Shown here piece by piece: positions 2,247-51,039 of a stretch of DNA of 63,013 bases. A model generated the notes under the pieces. It saw only the letters and a list, made by a program, of their open reading frames with translations. It searched no databases and was not told where the DNA came from. Source of the DNA: Calditrichota bacterium (lineage in GTDB: Bacteria > Calditrichota > Calditrichia > Calditrichales > J004); NCBI GenBank assembly GCA_024277115.1, contig JAJRVW010000125.1, positions 1-63,013 of the forward strand, read 5' to 3'. The stretch's first letter is position 1, and the number at the start of each line of letters is the position of its first letter. Both the position numbers and the translations under genes were made by a program.

Positions 2247-4190
2247 ATGAAAACACTTTTTATGATTAGCCTGTTTTTATTTAGCGCAGGCTTAATCGCC
2301 CAACCTGCAATTAAATACGTTGTTTCGTTTCCAAATATTATCCACCATGAGGCGGAAGTGCAAATTGAATTTTCCGGTTTGCCCGCCAAAGCCCTGGAGT
2401 TGAGAATGAGCCGTAGCTCGCCCGGGCGCTACGCCTTGCATGAGTTCGCAAAAAATGTTTACAATGTCCGTGTATCTGATCGTGCCGGAAACCGACTGGA
2501 CTTTACCCGGCCAAACCCGCATCAATGGAATGTTGCTCATCACGATGGAGTGGTAAAAATCCACTATACAATTTTTGGTGATTTGACAGACGGGACATAT
2601 TTGGCGTTGGATAATACGCATGCCCATCTTAATATGCCGGCTACTTTTATGTGGGCAAAAGGCTTGGAAAACAATCCCATAAAAATCGAGTTTATTCTTC
2701 CCAAAGAAAAATGGAAAATTGCCACCCAGCTTATCCCGGCCAACGCCCCAAATATTTTTACGGCGCCCAACCTGGATTATTTCATGGACAGTCCGGTCGA
2801 GATCAGTGATTTTCAAATGGCGTCCTGGCGGGAAAAATCCAATCAAAAAGACTATTCCATTCGGTTGGCGCTGCACCATCAGGGAAATATACAGGAGTTG
2901 GAAGCGTACAGGAAAATGGCCCGGGCCGTCATAAAGGAGCAAATCCATATTTTTGACGAATTGCCCCAATTTGAAAACGCTTCTTATACTTTTATTGCCG
3001 ATTATCTACCCTATGTTTATGGTGATGGAATGGAGCATCGTAACTCATCCGTTTTGACTGAAAAGGCCACTTTAAAAGAGGACGCGGTTGATTTATTTGG
3101 TACATTGGCCCATGAATTTATACATAGCTGGAATGTAGAACGTATCCGTCCTAAATCATTAGAACCTTTTAGTCTTGAACGGGCAAATATGTCCGGTGAA
3201 CTTTGGTTTGCCGAAGGTTTTACAAATTATTACGGGCCTTTAACCATCACACGTGCAGGGGGTTATTCTTTAGATAAATATGCCAAACGTATTTCACGTT
3301 CATTAAATTTTGTGATTAATGCGCCTGGAAGCAGAGTAAAAAGCGCCGAGGATATGAGCCGCTATGCACCGTTTGTGGATGCAGGCAAATCTATCGATCC
3401 TAAAAATTTAGAAAATATATATGTAAGTTATTACTCCTTTGGAGAAGTGATTGCGCTTGGGCTCGATTTAACTTTACGCACTCAATTTGCCGGTATTACA
3501 CTCGACGATTTTATGAAAGCGCTTTGGCAAAAATATGGTAAATCCGAAACACCTTACACAAATATCGACCTGGAGAACACACTGGCCGAGGTAACAAAAA
3601 ACACGGACTTTGCCCGATCATTTTTCGATAAATTTGTTTATGGCAATGAACTGCAAAATTACGCCCATTTATTGCAATTTGCAGGCATGTCCCTTAAACG
3701 GGAAGAACAAGGCGGGGCATGGTTGGGATTCAGCGCGTTAAAAGTAAAAAACAGGAAATTGGTTGTCGCGGAAACAACCCGACGGGGCACGCCGTTGTAT
3801 CGGGCCGGATTAGATAAAGGCGACACACTTTTAACGTTTGATGGCGACTCTCTAAAAACTGAAGCCGCGCTGGAAAAATGGTTAAAACTTAAAAAGCCTG
3901 GCGAAGCGATAGATATTAATTTCAATTCCCGCGATGGACAGAAAACGACAAAACTTGTTTTACAGGAAAATCCCCAGCTTATTGTCACACCTTTTGAGCA
4001 TGATTCGTTGGAAATAACACCCAATATTGTCGCCTTTCGTAAATCATGGCTGGGCGTTGGCAAGAATAGAAATGACAGCACCTTAGTGCGATACTGCCCA
4101 CTTTGCAAAAGGGCTTTTCCCTTTCGCTTTGAGTTTTGCAGGTATGATGGCGAAGCATTGAAAATTACTTTAGAACCAAATAAAAATTAA
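2247..4190 (+). CDS. M61 family aminopeptidase with PDZ domain and C-terminal zinc-ribbon-like tail
   Basis: The protein has 647 residues with an N-terminal signal peptide (hydrophobic core about 4-18), so it is exported. The M61 catalytic site is clear: HEFIH at about 289-293 and the third zinc ligand in WFAEGFTNYY (E about 323). A PDZ-like domain with GLDKGDTLLTFDG follows at about 490-580. Family members are glycyl aminopeptidases. The last 25 residues hold CPLC and FCRYDG, a CxxC...FCxxDG pattern like a zinc ribbon, which is unusual at the end of an exported M61 peptidase. It converges with the hydrolase gene on the other strand, one base apart. Confidence 0.88.
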   Translation: MKTLFMISLFLFSAGLIAQPAIKYVVSFPNIIHHEAEVQIEFSGLPAKALELRMSRSSPGRYALHEFAKNVYNVRVSDRAGNRLDFTRPNPHQWNVAHHDGVVKIHYTIFGDLTDGTYLALDNTHAHLNMPATFMWAKGLENNPIKIEFILPKEKWKIATQLIPANAPNIFTAPNLDYFMDSPVEISDFQMASWREKSNQKDYSIRLALHHQGNIQELEAYRKMARAVIKEQIHIFDELPQFENASYTFIADYLPYVYGDGMEHRNSSVLTEKATLKEDAVDLFGTLAHEFIHSWNVERIRPKSLEPFSLERANMSGELWFAEGFTNYYGPLTITRAGGYSLDKYAKRISRSLNFVINAPGSRVKSAEDMSRYAPFVDAGKSIDPKNLENIYVSYYSFGEVIALGLDLTLRTQFAGITLDDFMKALWQKYGKSETPYTNIDLENTLAEVTKNTDFARSFFDKFVYGNELQNYAHLLQFAGMSLKREEQGGAWLGFSALKVKNRKLVVAETTRRGTPLYRAGLDKGDTLLTFDGDSLKTEAALEKWLKLKKPGEAIDINFNSRDGQKTTKLVLQENPQLIVTPFEHDSLEITPNIVAFRKSWLGVGKNRNDSTLVRYCPLCKRAFPFRFEFCRYDGEALKITLEPNKN

Positions 4191-5346: not shown

Positions 5347-7329
5347 ATGGATAAATTTAAACTCGTTTCGCCTTATAGCCCACAAGGTGACCAGCCGACG
5401 GCTATTGCCGAGTTAACTGCCGGGCTTAAACGTGGTGACCAGTTCCAAACCTTGCTGGGCGTTACAGGGAGCGGTAAAACTTTCACCATGGCCAATGTGA
5501 TCGAGCAGGTCAACAGGCCAACGCTGATCCTCTCGCACAATAAAACGCTGGCCGCCCAATTATTTGGTGAGTTTAAAAGTTTCTTTCCGGAAAATGCGGT
5601 GGAGTTTTTTATCAGTTATTATGATTATTACCAACCTGAAGCCTATATCGCAACTACCGATACATTTATTGAAAAAGATTCATCTGTAAATGATGAGATT
5701 GACCGTTTGCGTTTAAAAGCGACAAGCTCGCTCCTTGCCCGGCGTGATGTAATTGTCGTCGCCAGCGTTAGTTGCATTTATGGGATTGGCTCGCCATCCG
5801 ATTATAAAGATTTGCTGGTTACCTTTAAAAAGGGGCAATTTATAAACCGCCAGGATTTCCTGATGCAATTGGTCGACATCCAATATAGCCGCAATGATTT
5901 TGAGTTTCAGCGCGGATGCTTTAGGGTGCGTGGGGACATCATCGATATCTTCCCGGCCTATGAGGAATTTGCTTACCGCCTGGAGTTTTTTGGCAATGAG
6001 ATAGACCGTATCCAGGTAATCGACCCGCTTACCGGCAAGGCCCGTCATGAAACAGACAAAGCCGCCATTTTCCCCGCTAAGCATTTTGTAACCACCGATG
6101 AGAAAAGGGAAATCGCCCAAAAACAAATCAGAGAAGAACTTAAAATACGTCTGGAACAATTACGCTCTCAAAATAAATTATTGGAAGCACAGCGTATCGA
6201 AATGCGCACCAACTTTGACTTGGAGATGATGCAGGAAATCGGCTATTGTAGTGGCATTGAAAATTATTCGCGTCATTTTTCTGGCAGAAAACCCGGTCAG
6301 GCGCCCTATACTTTGCTGGATTTCTTTCCCGATGATTTTTTATTATTTGTCTACGAATCGCACCAAAGTTTCCCACAGGTGCGCGCTATGTACAATGGTG
6401 ACCGCGCACGCAAGGAAACCCTTGTGGAACATGGGTTCCGCCTGCCAAGTGCCCTGGATAACCGTCCATTAAAATTTGATGAATTTGAAAAACATATCAA
6501 TCAGGTGATTTGTGTTTCGGCAACACCGGCAGCCTACGAATTGGAAAATAGCAATGGTGTTTTTGTGGAGCAGGTTATCCGGCCAACCGGTTTAATTGAT
6601 CCGGAAATTGAAGTACGGCCCATTGCCACACAAATTGATGATTTGATTGGTGAAGTGAAACTACGAGCCGAAAAAGGGGAGCGGTCGTTGATCACAACGT
6701 TGACAAAACGTATGGCCGAGGACCTTTCGGAATATCTTGCGGCGGCAGGGATTCGTGTGCGCTATATGCATTCGGAAATTGATGTATTGGAACGTGTTTC
6801 CATTTTACGTGAATTGCGCCTGGCACAGTTTGATGCTTTAGTTGGCATCAACCTTTTGCGTGAAGGCCTGGACTTGCCCGAGGTTTCGCTGGTGGCCGTG
6901 CTGGATGCAGATAAAGAAGGTTTTTTACGGTCGTATGTCTCCTTGATGCAAACTGCTGGCAGGGCGGCACGAAATGTGGGCGGCCAGGTTATCTTTTATG
7001 CGGACCGGATTACCGACTCGATGAAAGCAACAATAGATGAATGCGACCGGCGCCGCGAAAAACAAATCGCCTATAACAAAGCCCATAACATCACACCCAA
7101 AACGATCTTGAAATCGGCTGAGGAAATTATGCGCAGTACAGCGGTGGCCGATGTGCGCAAAGCCCAGCCTATCGTGTCGGATGTAAAAATTGATTATGGT
7201 AAGAATTTAAGTAATGAAGAGATTATCATTCGCCTGGAAAAAGATATGAAAACAGCAGCGGTCAATTTGGAGTTTGAAAAAGCAGCCGCGCTTAGAGACG
7301 AGATTAAGAGATTGTCAATTGACAATTGA
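5347..7329 (+). CDS. uvrB: UvrABC excinuclease subunit B
   Basis: Length (660 residues) and sequence are typical of UvrB. Walker A GVTGSGKT is at 38-45, the beta-hairpin region [11 protein letters not shown] near 92-102, helicase motif VI as QTAGRAARN, and a C-terminal UVR coiled coil at about 622-657 for UvrC and UvrA contact. UvrB verifies damage and recruits UvrC in nucleotide excision repair. No strong ribosome binding site precedes the ATG. The stop codon lies in a perfect 14-bp palindrome (7312-7325). Confidence 0.97.
7312..7325. repeat. Perfect 14-bp palindrome over the uvrB 3' end
   Basis: TTGTCAATTGACAA reads the same on both strands. It is followed by TTGATGATTGATAATTATCAA-like sequence, the kind of AT-rich self-complementary text that often marks gene ends in FCB genomes. 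It has no T-run, so a terminator role is not supported. Confidence 0.4.
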
Positions 7330-7362
7330 TGATTGATAATTATCAAGATTGAAAGAGGGAAA

Positions 7363-16118: not shown

Positions 16119-16826
16119 ATGAACGGTTCTGAAAAAAATAAAATCCCATCCAGAATAAAGGACTGGCCCAAAGAGGAGCGCCCACGCGAACGATTGATGA
16201 AACATGGGGCCGGTTCGGTAAGCTCGGCAGAGTTGGTTGCAATTCTATTAGGGCAGGGCAGCGCTAAAAATAATGCTGTGGATACGGCCAAACATCTTTT
16301 AAAAGAATTCAAAACTTTGCGCGGATTGGCCAATGCCTCGCTGGTAGAGCTGCAAAAAATTCCAGGGATTGGCCCGGCAAAGGCCGTAACATTACTGGCT
16401 GCCTTTCAGCTTTATCGCAATATGCAGCACGAAAGTGCTGAGCTGTCCATTACAAAATTTACCGATCCCGCGGCTGTGGCGGAAATTTATAAGCCGGTAA
16501 TCGGTCATCTTAAAAAAGAAAGTTTTTATGTAATCCTGCTTGATAGCGGCATGCGCAAAATCCAGGATGTTGAAGTTTCCCGTGGTATACTCACCGAGTC
16601 CCTTGTCCATCCCAGGGAAGTGTTTAACCCGGCCATACGGTTTAACGCCAAAGGCATCATTGTCTTGCACAACCATCCATCAGGGCAATCCAGGCCAAGC
16701 CCGGACGATATAAAAATGACCAAACGTCTCTTGGAAAGCGGTAAAATTTTAAGCATCCCCGTTTATGATCATTTAATAATCACAGAAAAGAGTTATTACA
16801 GTTTTAGGGAAAACGGACTGATCTGA
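16119..16826 (+). CDS. radC: RadC family JAB-domain protein
   Basis: 235 residues, the usual size. A helix-hairpin-helix region (LVELQKIPGIGPAKAVTLLAA) precedes the MPN/JAB domain, which has the JAMM metal motif HNHPSGQSRPSPDD near 188-201. RadC-type proteins were once linked to DNA repair, but the biochemical role is unsettled. The ATG has AGGA upstream. Confidence 0.93.
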   Translation: MNGSEKNKIPSRIKDWPKEERPRERLMKHGAGSVSSAELVAILLGQGSAKNNAVDTAKHLLKEFKTLRGLANASLVELQKIPGIGPAKAVTLLAAFQLYRNMQHESAELSITKFTDPAAVAEIYKPVIGHLKKESFYVILLDSGMRKIQDVEVSRGILTESLVHPREVFNPAIRFNAKGIIVLHNHPSGQSRPSPDDIKMTKRLLESGKILSIPVYDHLIITEKSYYSFRENGLI

Positions 16827-16845
16827 TTGAATATTTTAGAATGAA

Positions 16846-17301
16846 AGATTGTAAGATTGTAAGTTTGAAAGACTTTAAAACGGTATATTGAATCGAGGAT
16901 CAAGATTGACAAATGAAGAATTAAAAACAAGATCAAAACATTTTGCACATCGGTGTGTAAAACTCTGTCTATCCTTACCAAATTCAATCTTGGGAAGACA
17001 TATTCAGGGACAGCTTATAAGATGCTCTACATCTGTCGCAGCAAATTATCGAGCGGCCTGTCTTGCACAATCAAAAGCGGCATTTATTGCAAAAATGAGT
17101 ATTACGGTTGAAGAGACCGATGAATCTCTTTTTTGGCTTGAATTTATTATGGATGAAAAACTTTTAGACGAGAGCCGAATTAAACCCTTGTACAATGAAG
17201 GCCTTGAATTAGCAAAGATTTTTATTTCATCAAGGATGACGGCGAGCGGGAAGACAAAAGTAAAATAACAGATGGTTAACATTCTTACAATCTTACACTC
17301 T
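16846..17301. mobile_element. Inverted-repeat-bounded cassette carrying a four-helix-bundle gene
   Basis: AGATTGTAAGATTGTAAG at 16846-16863 matches the reverse complement of 17284-17301 at 17 of 18 positions. The arms enclose one small gene and little else. A further solo arm-like copy (17 of 19 matches) lies at 22673-22691. The layout recalls 23S rRNA intervening sequences, which carry a four-helix-bundle gene between complementary ends, but here it is intergenic. No transposase is present. Confidence 0.6.
16906..17268 (+). CDS. Four-helix-bundle protein (23S rRNA intervening-sequence type)
   Basis: About 120 residues, all helical, with the family landmarks: a first helix ending in LCLSLPNSILGRHIQGQLIRC, then SVAANYRAACLAQSKAAFIAKMSITVEETDESLFWLEF. 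Proteins of this family occur in 23S rRNA intervening sequences and as free-standing genes; the related Avd protein forms a pentamer that binds nucleic acid. The TTG at 16906 is chosen because GAGG lies about eight bases upstream; an upstream in-frame TTG at 16888 has no clear site. Its role here is unknown. Confidence 0.82.
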   Translation: MTNEELKTRSKHFAHRCVKLCLSLPNSILGRHIQGQLIRCSTSVAANYRAACLAQSKAAFIAKMSITVEETDESLFWLEFIMDEKLLDESRIKPLYNEGLELAKIFISSRMTASGKTKVK

Positions 17302-17328
17302 TAAATCTTAGAATCCAAAGGGAGCACC

Positions 17329-18879
17329 ATGACACGCGAAGAACAATTTAAACAATTGGAAAAATTTAGGGAAGAGGCCAAGCTCGGCGGCGGCGAAAAG
17401 CGCATTGAGGCCCAGCATAAAAAAGGCAAATTAACAGCCCGCGAGCGGATTGATTTTTTAGTGGATGAAGGCTCGTTTGTGGAAATGGATATGTTGGTGC
17501 GCCACCGCAGTAAAGATTTTGGGTTGGAGAAGCAACGCCCGGCAGGTGATGGCGTCGTGACCGGCTATGGGTATATCGATGGCCGGCTTATCTTTTTGTT
17601 TTCACAGGATTTTACCGTATTTGGCGGTTCACTTTCCGAAACCTTTGCAGAGAAAATTTTAAAAGTGATGGAGCAGGCCATGAAGGTCGGGGCGCCGGTA
17701 ATTGGTTTAAATGATTCCGGTGGCGCGCGTATCCAGGAAGGCGTAGTCAGCCTCGGCGGATATGCGGAAATATTTTTACAAAACACATTGGCCTCGGGCG
17801 TAGTGCCGCAAATCTCGGCTGTTTTAGGCCCTTGTGCGGGTGGCGCGGTTTATTCCCCGGCTATTACCGATTTTACGATCATGGTGCGCAAGACAAGCTA
17901 TATGTTTGTTACCGGGCCTAATGTGGTAAAAACAGTCACGCACGAAGAGGTGAGTTCCGAAGATTTGGGCGGCGCCGATACGCATGCGTCTAAAAGCGGT
18001 GTAAACCACCTTACGGCCGATAGCGATGTGGAAGCCCTGCAAAAAGTGCGGCAGCTTATTTCGTATATGCCATCCAATAATATGGAGGATGCGCCACGTA
18101 TAAAAAGCGGCGATCAGCCGGACAGGATTGATGAAAAACTGGACAGCCTCGTCCCGGAAAATCCCAACCAGCCTTATGATATAAAAGAAGTGATTACATC
18201 CGTCGCGGATAATGGTGTGTTTTTTGAAATCCATGAAGATTATGCTAAAAATATTGTAGTTGGTTTCGCGCGATTGGATGGCTACTCGGTCGGGATAATT
18301 GCCAATCAGCCCGCTTTTCTTGCCGGCGTGTTGGATATCGATACATCGACTAAGGCTGCGCGTTTTATCCGTTTTTGTGATGCCTTTAATATCCCGCTGG
18401 TCACTTTTGAAGATGTCCCCGGATTTTTGCCCGGCACGCATCAGGAATGGGGCGGCATTATTAAACATGGCGCTAAACTGCTTTATGCCTACTGCGAGGC
18501 CACCGTGCCTAAGATTACAGTTATCACCCGCAAAGCGTATGGCGGCGCGTACGATGTGATGAGTTCCAAACATATCCGTGGTGATGTCAACCTGGCCTGG
18601 CCATCGGCAGAAATTGCCGTGATGGGGCCAAAAGGCGCCGCAGAAATTATCTTTAAAAAAGAAATTGCCAATGCCGAAGACCCGGAAGCGATGCTGGCCG
18701 AGAAAGAAAAAGAATACCGGGAGAAATTTGCAAATCCATATCTCGCGGCAGAACGCGGCTATATCGACGAGGTGATTTTACCCAGAAACACCAGGTTGAG
18801 AATTATTCAGGCCTTGCGCATGTTGGAAAACAAAGTGGATAAAAACCCGGTGAAGAAGCATGGGAATATCCCGCTGTAG
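17329..18879 (+). CDS. Acyl-CoA carboxylase, carboxyltransferase (beta) subunit
   Basis: The 516-residue protein matches propionyl-/methylmalonyl-CoA carboxyltransferases: the N-terminal [13 protein letters not shown], the acyl-CoA pocket [14 protein letters not shown], a [12 protein letters not shown] oxyanion loop, and the C-terminal biotin-site block [14 protein letters not shown] and [11 protein letters not shown]. It would transfer CO2 from biotin to propionyl-CoA or the reverse. No biotin carboxylase, biotin carrier or mutase gene is adjacent, so carboxylase and decarboxylase roles cannot be separated. GGGAG precedes the ATG, just beyond the right arm of the four-helix cassette. Confidence 0.93.
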
Positions 18880-22672: not shown

Positions 22673-22691
22673 AAGACTGTAAGATTGAAAG
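22673..22691. repeat. Solo copy of the four-helix cassette arm
   Basis: AAGACTGTAAGATTGAAAG differs from the cassette arm at 16845-16863 at two of 19 positions. It stands alone upstream of the M49 peptidase gene. Confidence 0.45.
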
Positions 22692-24845: not shown

Positions 24846-25907
24846 TTGAAAAAAGTTCTAATAACCGGTGGGGCAGGTTTTATCGGTTCCAATCTGGTGC
24901 ATTATCTTATCGACAATAAGCTGGCCGAAGTCATCAATGTTGATCTTTTGACCTATGCCGGGAATTTGGCTTCTTTGAAAGCCGTAGAAAATAATCCACT
25001 TTACCATTTTGAAAAGGCGGATATTTGCGATCCTGAAAAAATAAAAACTATTTTTGAAAAATATAAACCGGACCTGGTTATGCACCTTGCGGCGGAATCG
25101 CATGTGGACCGTTCCATTGACGGACCGGCGGAGTTTTTAAATACCAATATTATGGGCACCTATAATATGCTGGAAATCAGCCGTTCGTACTGGGAAAAAC
25201 TTGATGATGATAAAAAGAATGGTTTTCGGTTTTTACATATTTCCACCGATGAGGTTTTTGGTTCCCTCGGTACCGAAGGCATTTTCAGTGAGACCACGGC
25301 TTACGATCCCAAATCGCCATACTCGGCCAGCAAAGCTTCATCCGATCATTTAGCGCGTGCCTGGCAACATACTTTTGGACTTCCAACGTTGATTACAAAC
25401 TGCTCTAATAATTATGGCCCTTATCAATTCCCCGAAAAATTAATCCCAGTAATTATTTTAAATGCCCTGCAAGGCAAGCCAATCCCGGTTTATGGTAAAG
25501 GGGAAAATATCCGTGACTGGCTTTATGTGGAAGATCATGTTTCTGCTTTATGGAAGGTTATAACCGAAGGTGGAACTGGCGAGACTTATTGCATTGGTGG
25601 CAATAATGAAAAACAGAATATTGATGTGGTAAAAATCATTTGCAGCTTAATGGACGAGTTGAGCGATAACCCAAAAGTAGGGCGGCATGAAGATTTAATC
25701 ACGTATGTAAAAGACAGGCCGGGCCACGATCTGCGCTATGCCATCGATGCGACGAAGATAAAAAATGATTTGGGTTGGGAGCCGGCCACAACCTTTGAGG
25801 TAGGCTTTCGGAAAACGGTAAAATGGTACCTGGAAAACCTGGATTGGTGCTCGGACGTTTTGGACGGTAAGTTGGATTTAAAGAGAATTGGTCTGAAAAA
25901 TACTTGA
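24846..25907 (+). CDS. rfbB: dTDP-glucose 4,6-dehydratase
   Basis: 353 residues of the extended SDR family. The NAD-binding [11 protein letters not shown] is at the start, with [10 protein letters not shown], the catalytic TDEVFG and [10 protein letters not shown] further in. It makes dTDP-4-keto-6-deoxyglucose for L-rhamnose or other deoxysugars of surface polysaccharide. It starts at TTG with AAGGAG nine bases upstream. The TGA stop lies within the left arm of the GxxExxY cassette. Confidence 0.96.
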
Positions 25908-26334
25908 CAGGATTACAGGATAAGAAAATATTTCTCTATGGAATATCAGAATATTACAGAACAAATTATAAAATGTGCTTATAAGGTTTATAACACATTG
26001 GGGTTCGGCTATCTTGAATCGGTCTATGAGAAAAGCATTATAATTGAATTAAAGAAAACAGGTTTAGATGTAGAAAGTCAAAACCCAATAACAGTCAGAT
26101 ATGACAACGAGATTGTTGGTTCATTTATAGCAGACTTATTTGTTGATAAAAAGGTAATCGTTGAATTAAAATCGATAAAAACTCTCACAAAAGCACATGA
26201 AGTCCAGTTAGTTAACTATTTAACAGCAACAGGAATCGATGTTGGTTTATTGATCAATTTTGGAGAGTCGAAAGTAGAAGTAAAAAGAAAAGTCAGGATG
26301 CTAAAAAAGTGATTTTTATCCTGTTATCCTGTCA
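25905..26334. mobile_element. Inverted-repeat-bounded cassette carrying a GxxExxY gene
   Basis: The left end TGACAGGATTACAGGATAAG (25905-25924, continuing into A-rich text) is matched by the reverse complement of the right end at 26312-26334, TGACAGGATAACAGGATAAA, with one clear mismatch over the first 19 bases. The element holds a single gene, splits rfbB from rfbA and uses the rfbB stop codon as its first three bases. No transposase is present, so movement would need an outside enzyme. Confidence 0.68.
25938..26312 (+). CDS. GxxExxY family protein
   Basis: 124 residues. The name-giving motif is seen as GYLESVY within NTLGFGYLESVYEKSI, followed by the family blocks GSFIADLFVDKKVIVELKS and LVNYLTATGIDVGLLINFG. 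The ADL...VELK spacing resembles a PD-(D/E)xK nuclease-type core, which is suggestive only. Family members are short, often present in many copies and scattered between unrelated genes. The stop overlaps the right inverted-repeat arm. Confidence 0.85.
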   Translation: MEYQNITEQIIKCAYKVYNTLGFGYLESVYEKSIIIELKKTGLDVESQNPITVRYDNEIVGSFIADLFVDKKVIVELKSIKTLTKAHEVQLVNYLTATGIDVGLLINFGESKVEVKRKVRMLKK

Positions 26335-48837: not shown

Positions 48838-51039
48838 ATGAAACTCAACAACATGAAAATTAAATCAAAGGTATTGGTGATTTTTCTACCTGTTATTATA
48901 GTGATGATATTAATTGGTATGTGGACTATTAATATGATTACAAAAAGTGCCCTCAATAAAAACCTGGAAAAATCAGTTGAGATTGTAAGTAATATAGCTT
49001 CCGGAGCCGTAAAAACCGGGTTGGAATTTGCTGATAATGAAACAATTGCTGAGGCTCTGAAATATTTTAAAAGTGATGAGCAAATATCTTTTATTCGTGT
49101 GAAAAACAATGTCGATGAGACAGTCTTTTTCTTCAGAAGAGAAGGTTATCCAAAAATAGCATCAAATAAATCCGGAGAGCAGGAAGACAATGATTATGAA
49201 TTTTTCAGCTCAAAACCAGTTATGTCTGGCACTGAAGAAATAGGTACTGTATATGTAGGGATTTCGCTTGAGGCGAGGGATGCCGCGCTCAGTTTTGCGA
49301 ATACAATTTTAAATGTTTTATCTATTGTCGGTGTTCTCGTTTTAGCTGCTTTGATATTGTTTATGGCCACCCGCTTTTCAAAGCCCATCCAGGGACTTGC
49401 AGAAATAGCAGAGAAATTAAGTGACGGGGATGTTCAGCAATAAATTGAGTTTCATAGCGGGGACGAGTTAGGTATTCTGGCCGATTCCTTCAGGAAGATT
49501 GTTGCTGCCCAGCGTGAAAAAGCACATGTTGCCAATGAGATAGCACGTGGAAATATGAACGTCGAGCTTTCTCAAATCAATAAACAGGATAGCCTTGGCA
49601 ATGCTATGAATACGATGAAAGAACGGATTCAAGCAATGGTGAACGAAGTACAAAATTTGGTAGAAAGTGCTGTTGAAGGCGATCTGAAAAAACGGGCGGA
49701 TGCCACAAACCATCAGGGTGATTTTTATGAAATTATCAGTGGGATCAATCGTATTTTAGATGCGGTTGTAGAGCCAATGTCGGTCACGGCCGATTACATT
49801 CAACAAATTGGGGCAGGGCATATTCCTGAAAAGGTTGACCAGAATTTTAAAGGTGATTTTAAAGTTGTTGAAGACAATTTGAATATGTGTATTTCGTCGA
49901 TCAATGCATTAATTACGGATTCCAGAACATTAGCGGAAGCAGCAATTGCCGGGAATTTAAGTGTAAGGGTAGATGAAGATAACCATAATGGTGATTATGC
50001 TAAAATTATGGATGGTTTAAATAATACAATGGAGGCTGTGGTCAGGCCAATTAATGAAGCAAAAATTGTATTAGATGAGATGGCCAATGGTAACCTTACA
50101 TTTACAATGGATGGTGAGTTTAATGGTGATCATGCAAAAATAAAAACAGCTCTTAATAACTCGATACATTCTATCAATGAAATTTTGAGCCAGGTTGAAG
50201 TTGCAGTGGAAAAGGTTGGGATTGGATCAAAGCAGGTTTCAGAAACAAGTCAGTCTGTTTCGCAGGGGGCTTCGGATCAGGCAAGTTCTATGGAAGAAAT
50301 TAGCGCATCTATGGTCGAGATTGGCCAACAGTCTAGGCAAAATGCCGAAAATGCCGAAAATGCCAATAATATTTCGCTCAAATCGCGCAGCGCAGCCGAG
50401 GAAGGCAACTCACAGATGAATGAAATGTTGGAAGCGATGGAAAAGATCAATAAATCATCGGTAGAGATTTCGCGCATTATAAAGGTAATTGATGAGATAG
50501 CATTCCAAACTAATTTATTAGCCCTTAATGCAGCTGTAGAAGCAGCCCGTGCAGGTGTACATGGCAAAGGCTTTGCAGTGGTTGCCGAAGAAGTGCGTAA
50601 CCTTGCACAAAGAAGCTCGAAAGCTGCCGAAGAAACAACGGAATTGATTGAGGAATCGGTAAACAATGTAAAGAATGGTGCTGAAATTGCCGGTAAAACA
50701 GCCGATGCAATTAATCGAATTATCGAGGGTATCGGACAATCCACCGACCTTATAGCGGAAATAAATACATCCTCCCAAGAACAGGTTCAAGGGATTGACC
50801 AGGTTAGTACAGCATTGCAGCAGATAGATAAAGTAACGCAATCCAACACATCGTATGCCGAGGAGAGTGCAGCAGCAGCCAGTGAGCTCACCATCGAAGC
50901 AGAGCATCTAAGAAAAATGTTACAACGTTTTCAGCTTAATAAAAATATTGGTGCTGCAGGTGGCGGATATGGGAATAATAACTTAGAAGAATTTGCTTTT
51001 GAACAAGGTGAAGATTTGGATTTTGGGAACAACTTTTAG
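48838..51039 (+). pseudogene. Membrane chemoreceptor with repeated HAMP domains, interrupted by an in-frame TAA
   Basis: The frame from 48838 encodes a transmembrane helix (VLVIFLPVIIVMILIGMWTI), a periplasmic domain of about 120 residues, a second membrane helix and the start of HAMP (PIQGLAEIAEKLSDGDVQQ), then TAA at 49441-49443 (codon 202). It continues in the same frame with [18 protein letters not shown], at least three more HAMP-like units (about 215-445) and a full signalling domain with [20 protein letters not shown]. The stop is one change from AAA or GAA, and K or E is expected there. Translation restarting at 49555 would give a soluble receptor. Confidence 0.8.

Follow-up and report, generated by a model that had tools for sequence, protein, structure and literature searches.

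The presence of a small gene of the family known from 23S rRNA intervening sequences (IVS) between two protein-coding genes raises the question of what kind of unit it belongs to. In the window, the whole 63,013 nucleotide stretch analysed here (contig JAJRVW010000125.1 of a Calditrichota bacterium), inverted arms enclose a single four-helix gene between radC and a carboxylase gene, as a preliminary description of this DNA had stated. The sequence, the open reading frames and the match to PF05635 all agree with this. On balance, and with moderate confidence, the cassette is read as an IVS-type element lodged in an operon gap, one PF05635 gene flanked by inverted arrays with some five words each. 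Its arms would be cognate to the protein, its RNA would be excised, and it would spread in trans.

The cassette between radC and the carboxylase gene

Only a PF05635 gene lies between the arms and no transposase is encoded there. The protein clears the curated cut-off of the family (49.5 versus 33.8 bits), and its TTG start falls at the same place as the ATG of the copy in the congener, G001. The gene is intact and is conserved between the congeners. The arms had been described as 17-of-18-base repeats. The inverted pair is present, with AAGATTGTAAGATTGTAAG at 16845-16863 on the forward strand and, with 1 mismatch, at 17284-17302 on the reverse strand, but the arms consist of tandem words rather than simple 18-mers. 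These words are 7–9 nt long, mostly 8, with the core GATT; in the reverse complement of 17276-17315 the right arm reads GATTCTAA/GATTTAA/GAGTGTAA/GATTGTAA/GAATGTTAA. Allowing up to 3 mismatches, AAGATTGTAAGATTGTAAG has 6 matches in the window, against 0.06 expected from shuffles. An Rfam search of the locus returned nothing.

Table 1. Coordinates of the features of the window
Feature	Positions	Strand	Basis or context
Palindromic array of a 7-nt word, ATTGTCAATTGACAATTGATGATTGATAATT	7311..7341	+	At a gap filled in the sister species G001
radC, upstream neighbour	16119..16826	+	ORF list; stop codon TGA at 16824-16826
Left arm, five tandem 8-nt words GAATGAAA/GATTGTAA/GATTGTAA/GTTTGAAA/GACTTTAA	16839..16878	+	Sequence; inverted repeat; period 8
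Cassette gene, PF05635 (23S_rRNA_IVP / four-helix bundle), TTG start	16906..17268	+	Pfam 5.6e-13
Right arm, five tandem words (9, 8, 8, 7, 8 nt), inverse orientation	17276..17315	-	Sequence; inverted repeat
GGGAG, ribosome-binding-like site of the carboxylase gene; undisturbed, beyond the right arm	17320..17324	+	Sequence
Carboxyltransferase gene, downstream neighbour	17329..18879	+	ORF
Solo two-word array of the window arm word (AAGACTGTAAGATTGAAAG), intergenic	22673..22691	+	Pattern scan; sequence context
GxxExxY (PDDEXK_3) cassette, arms TGACAGGATTACAGGATAAGAA and inverse, gene at 25938-26312	25905..26334	+	Between two co-directional genes

The site in related genomes

The sole congener sampled (G001) has the cassette gene at the same site, 72% identical to that of the window, with radC 85% and the carboxylase gene 90% identical; for the cassette gene dN is 0.19 and dS is saturated. 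In other family members the carboxylase gene follows straight after radC, across a gap of about 14 nt with a ribosome-binding site. In these empty gaps CGGAG is the counterpart of the GGGAG of the window. The radC orthologues of relatives are 60–85% identical and the adjoining carboxylase genes 72–90%, and across relatives in the order the two genes are adjacent without a PF05635 gene. The arms and gene are a discrete unit, located between a stop codon and a ribosome-binding site and absent from the outgroups. Conserved synteny, which had been named beforehand as evidence against a cassette, holds for the genus (G001) only, the gap being empty in relatives beyond it. Because the site is filled in the congener and empty in the relatives, entry of the cassette probably predates the split of the window species and G001.

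The best relatives of the protein from other phyla are 61–67% identical, close to the 72% of the congener, which fits horizontal spread. No target-site duplication is definable at the window site, the empty sites compared all being diverged. Searches for a clean empty site elsewhere found only filled copies in near-identical plasmid DNA for Planktothrix, and for Gloeocapsa only Thermus and Rhodococcus operons, 66–69% identical, with a matched span about 400 nt shorter.

Four-helix-bundle genes are also seen in defence-type operons of plasmids, in Planktothrix agardhii (L262), Gloeocapsa (L264) and Chlorohelix (L330). The gene orders are DISARM drmD / IVP / MmeI and DUF1156 / IVP / Swt1-HEPN, the latter being found in a cyanobacterium and in a member of the Chloroflexota.

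Cassettes at other PF05635 loci

The arm score was taken as the best inverted match between the 200-nt flanks of a locus, with a threshold of 12, and as a control left and right flanks were swapped between different loci. Arms are present at 63% of 68 PF05635 loci from the window's genome and 15 relatives of the order, compared with 2% of swapped flanks. In a second set, 79 usable loci from named organisms chosen by similarity to the window protein, 84% have arms, compared with 19% of swapped flanks. The higher control value is telling in itself: all members of this set belong to a single protein subfamily with a common word core. By record title the subfamily set spans at least ten phyla, and it includes isolates of Flavobacterium, Aequorivita, Mesonia and Rhodopirellula; selection was by similarity, binning errors in MAGs may be present, and in several cases one site is represented by more than one related species. 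Cassettes of this build are found in ten phyla or more and appear to form a widespread class of mobile mini-cassette that has hardly been described; the literature searched yielded no account of the class as a whole.

The preliminary description had suggested a common small-cassette design, to be doubted if arm copies were missing near other four-helix genes. At the level of the class they are not missing. For both PF05635 and GxxExxY genes arms are far more frequent than in the swapped-flank controls, so that the design is wider than had been claimed, but there is no single arm sequence. Each protein subfamily has its own word, and other four-helix genes in the same genome therefore have different arms. 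The window's own genome has ten PF05635 matches, several with stops breaking the frame, and the complete genome G006 has nine PF05635 loci. One of the loci in the latter (L107, G006:C1 2540607-2540906) has CRISPR-like direct repeats (CCCCGTTATTCAGAGGGGATTGAGAC) flanking the PF05635 gene.

Arm words and protein subfamilies

Arm similarity and protein identity are correlated across 101 clear-armed cassettes (Mantel r 0.525; maximum of 2000 permutations 0.18), and remain so after deduplication at 60% (0.445 versus 0.20). Same-orientation arm pairs scoring at least 11 make up 0.2% of pairs below 20% protein identity and 38% of those above 60%, whereas reverse-orientation pairs with such scores never exceed 1.4%. 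Cassette pairs within one genome have no common words. The arm word tracks the protein subfamily and not the host. Inheritance of word and gene as one unit is enough to produce this link, and recognition of the word by its own protein is therefore only suggested by it. In the words of the window subfamily positions 2–4 are nearly fixed (A, T, T), partly through word choice, while the last two positions vary among cassettes and agree inside each cassette.

Of the 101 cassettes, 87 have PF05635 arms with a period of 7 and 13 with a period of 8. The number of words per arm, counted in 100 arms after deduplication with a strict counter since a dynamic-programming counter overextends, is five in 36, four in 15 and six in 7. 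Lone arrays elsewhere likewise have about 4–5 words, and five may therefore be a property of the arrays rather than of the protein.

Placement and orientation

Placement was assessed in 80 cassettes whose two neighbours, as called by a simple ORF finder, are both at most 300 bp away. In 78 of these the upstream gene has the direction of the cassette gene, and the arm starts a median of 2 bp past the upstream stop codon. The downstream gene has this direction in 72, with its start a median of 17.5 bp from the cassette. After deduplication the upstream gene is co-directional in 36 of 38 (p 5e-9) and the medians are 8 and 23 bp. The cassettes thus lie in the sense direction, immediately after a stop codon. 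In 86 of the 101 clear-armed cassettes the left arm is G-rich. Inverted repeats enclosing one gene could also form an invertible switch, the arms being recombination sites that flip the gene. The single orientation to the upstream gene and the fixed polarity of the left arm argue against this, leaving it next to no probability, and argue for dependence on read-through transcription. On a plasmid of Nostoc sp. TCL26-01 (L265 1629-3385) a four-helix-bundle gene located between cas2 and cas1 is on the opposite strand, a rare departure from placement in the sense direction.

Arm words without a gene

A solo arm copy at 22673 had been noted, and a count of arm copies across the genome proposed. The solo copy is real and was found by pattern scan. 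A scan of the whole assembly, allowing up to 2 mismatches, gave 17 arm matches and 0 for a reversed control pattern. Most of these are outside the window cassette, and gene-free hairpins of the same word are present at C60:9099-9220, C176:20163-20329 and C202:9308. At the gap matching the palindromic array of the window (Table 1), G001 has a PF05635 cassette of another subfamily.

Lone arrays of 7–8-nt words, such as AACTATTC, AAGATTA and AATTACG, are frequent in 800 kb of G006 and G001. The AATTACG arrays correspond to the word found in the arms of a PF05635 cassette at another place in G006. The window itself also has a 9-nt tandem array, AAAATGCCG x3, at 50339-50370.

Arrays of 7–8-nt words might arise from replication slippage in tolerant gaps, a gene then being flanked by two such arrays by coincidence. 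The many lone word arrays of these genomes speak for this. However, the 141 periodic segments of the 800-kb sample include no two inverted arrays that match at the threshold of the census; this threshold also missed one weaker known PF05635 pair. An inverted-repeat census with an 8-base seed likewise misses diverged arms. In addition, the arms of a cassette match each other far better than swapped arms do and the words follow the protein across phyla, and slippage alone is considered very improbable.

Relationship to 23S intervening sequences and other repeats

The 23S genes, where the same arms might be looked for, could be checked only in relatives of the order, since the 23S gene of the window genome is missing from its assembly; it was not found in the assemblies of G001, G002, G003 and G016 either. 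Two of the PF05635 loci of the order set (L072 and L102) are inside LSU rRNA genes; they are true 23S intervening sequences, and their arms (TCAAGGAACAAGG...) are like those of the cassettes. The 23S IVS of Coxiella burnetii has tandem heptamers (GACAGAT) near its end and 28-bp termini, and is excised by RNase III (PMC4990558). Taken with the arms of L072 and L102, these heptamers suggest that the intergenic cassettes are elements of the 23S IVS kind that occupy a different habitat.

The Coxiella IVS and the cassettes have in common a PF05635 gene of about 120 codons, an element size of about 430–470 nt, complementary termini, tandem heptamers close to the end and a scattered distribution. In the window cassette the termini are 31-nt arms that are 84% complementary, and tandem words of 8 nt are present in both arms, those of most relatives being 7 nt. 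The Coxiella IVS is in 23S rRNA, whereas the window cassette is between protein genes, radC and the carboxylase gene, behind a stop codon. Heptamers are reported for one IVS only in PMC4990558, the only paper in the literature searched to describe heptamers in an IVS. In that literature no subfamily-specific word rule, five-word peak or intergenic majority was found.

Intergenic tandem words of 7 nt are also known as the TAACTGA heptamer repeats of the Beggiatoaceae (PMC4679880) and the cyanobacterial STRRs, but what is described there is direct repeats rather than pairs of arms enclosing a gene. PMC4679880 does not contain the terms 23S, S23 or four helix. REP/RAYT systems resemble the cassettes in that their hairpin repeats lie in intergenic gaps and are cognate to a small protein; they differ in that the protein is a Y1 transposase, while the cassette arms are tandem words flanking a PF05635 gene.

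Protein structure and possible modes of spread

The AlphaFold model of the window protein has four helices (pLDDT 96). Its best Foldseek matches are 2rld (TM 0.81–0.82), an S23-family structure, 2gsc, and Avd (4dwl), and it also matches 8ub7, a ribonucleoprotein of diversity-generating retroelements (DGR). Five chains are listed in each of 2rld and 2gsc, a hint that the family protein is a pentamer. Avd is a pentamer.

It may be inferred that the arms are bound, that the RNA is excised and that the unit is mobile. The arms would be putative cognate sites of the encoded protein and, as the family crystal structures contain five chains, the protein may form a five-fold ring that reads about five words. 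Base-pairing of the arms in the RNA transcribed together with the neighbouring genes would allow RNase III to cut the cassette out, as in 23S IVSs. Lying between genes and removed from the transcript in this way, the insertion would do almost no harm to either of them. Spread of the element would be by a trans-acting route.

In the folding of the cassette RNA, a check proposed at the outset, the minimum-energy structure pairs the arms, although the stability of the whole RNA is not unusual (z -0.68). Arm mismatches are G-U in 78 cases and A-C in 59 (p 0.12), with no difference from swapped arms; G-U is not in excess, and selection on RNA pairing is thus not apparent. In the orthologue of the congener arm pairing is weaker (score 11 versus 18.5).

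Since neither the pairing test nor the overall stability supports the RNA step, the main rival is an element mobilised in trans at the DNA level, a non-autonomous transposon with the arms as terminal inverted repeats read by the protein and a transposase, for example of the RAYT-type Y1 kind, acting from elsewhere. The discrete unit with empty sites, the cargo-free hairpins and the solo arms of the same word are all consistent with this, as is the failure to detect selection on RNA pairing. Each of the six genomes tested has Y1 transposases, and the purH-purC gap of G016, a gap that holds a PF05635 cassette in G006, contains a gene that by its sequence is Y1-transposase-like and is accompanied by hairpin repeats. 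The near-total sense orientation behind a stop codon is not expected of such a transposon without strong selection, however, the cassette has no transposase, no duplication was seen, and RAYT hairpins are unlike the cassette arms. A DNA transposon is regarded as a serious but less likely explanation.

The match to Avd and to the DGR ribonucleoprotein, together with the sense orientation, would also suit retro-mobility, in which the PF05635 protein acts in an Avd-like way and a reverse transcriptase copies the cassette RNA into DNA. Avd has the four-helix fold of the cassette protein but is distant in sequence, at 11–13% over the aligned part, and the reverse transcriptase, template and variable repeat that accompany it in diversity-generating retroelements are not seen at the window locus. 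Two reverse transcriptase genes are present in the window's genome, but on other contigs, with none near the cassette. None was found in G001, G016, G011 or G006, and as the last of these is complete and has nine PF05635 loci, the element seems able to do without a resident reverse transcriptase. Retro-mobility is considered quite improbable.

GxxExxY cassettes and gaps with changing content

Arms are present at 50% of GxxExxY loci, compared with 5.5% of swapped flanks. Their words are mostly of 8–10 nt. The cassettes have a median size of 454, like those of PF05635, and 16 of 17 have the same orientation. A general class can be put forward only tentatively: small proteins of unrelated folds, each perhaps reading its own repeated word in two inverted arms, with a period set by the family (7–8 nt for the pentamer-like four-helix proteins, 8–10 nt for the PD-(D/E)XK nucleases) and about five words matching a five-fold ring, might have spread into sense gaps behind stop codons across bacteria, the 23S IVSs being the visible tip. 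If the proteins are indeed cargo, two common orphan families, the four helix bundle and GxxExxY, would be explained as the cargo of mini-elements. The cassettes would also be a source of operon-gap insertions that annotation pipelines take for ordinary genes. PF05635 proteins are widespread, and the protein-specific word in the flanking arms is a concrete candidate ligand for them.

Some gaps differ in content between related genomes. One has a PF05635 cassette in the window's genome (G000:C111) and a GxxExxY cassette in the sister species G001; another has a PF05635 pseudogene in G000 and a gene-free word hairpin in G001. The purH-purC gap has no cassette in G017 and G007, and in G015 (L273, C603 ~3080-3430) it contains two nested gene-free inverted arrays, of the GTTGAATG type outside and the CGTTATTCG type inside.
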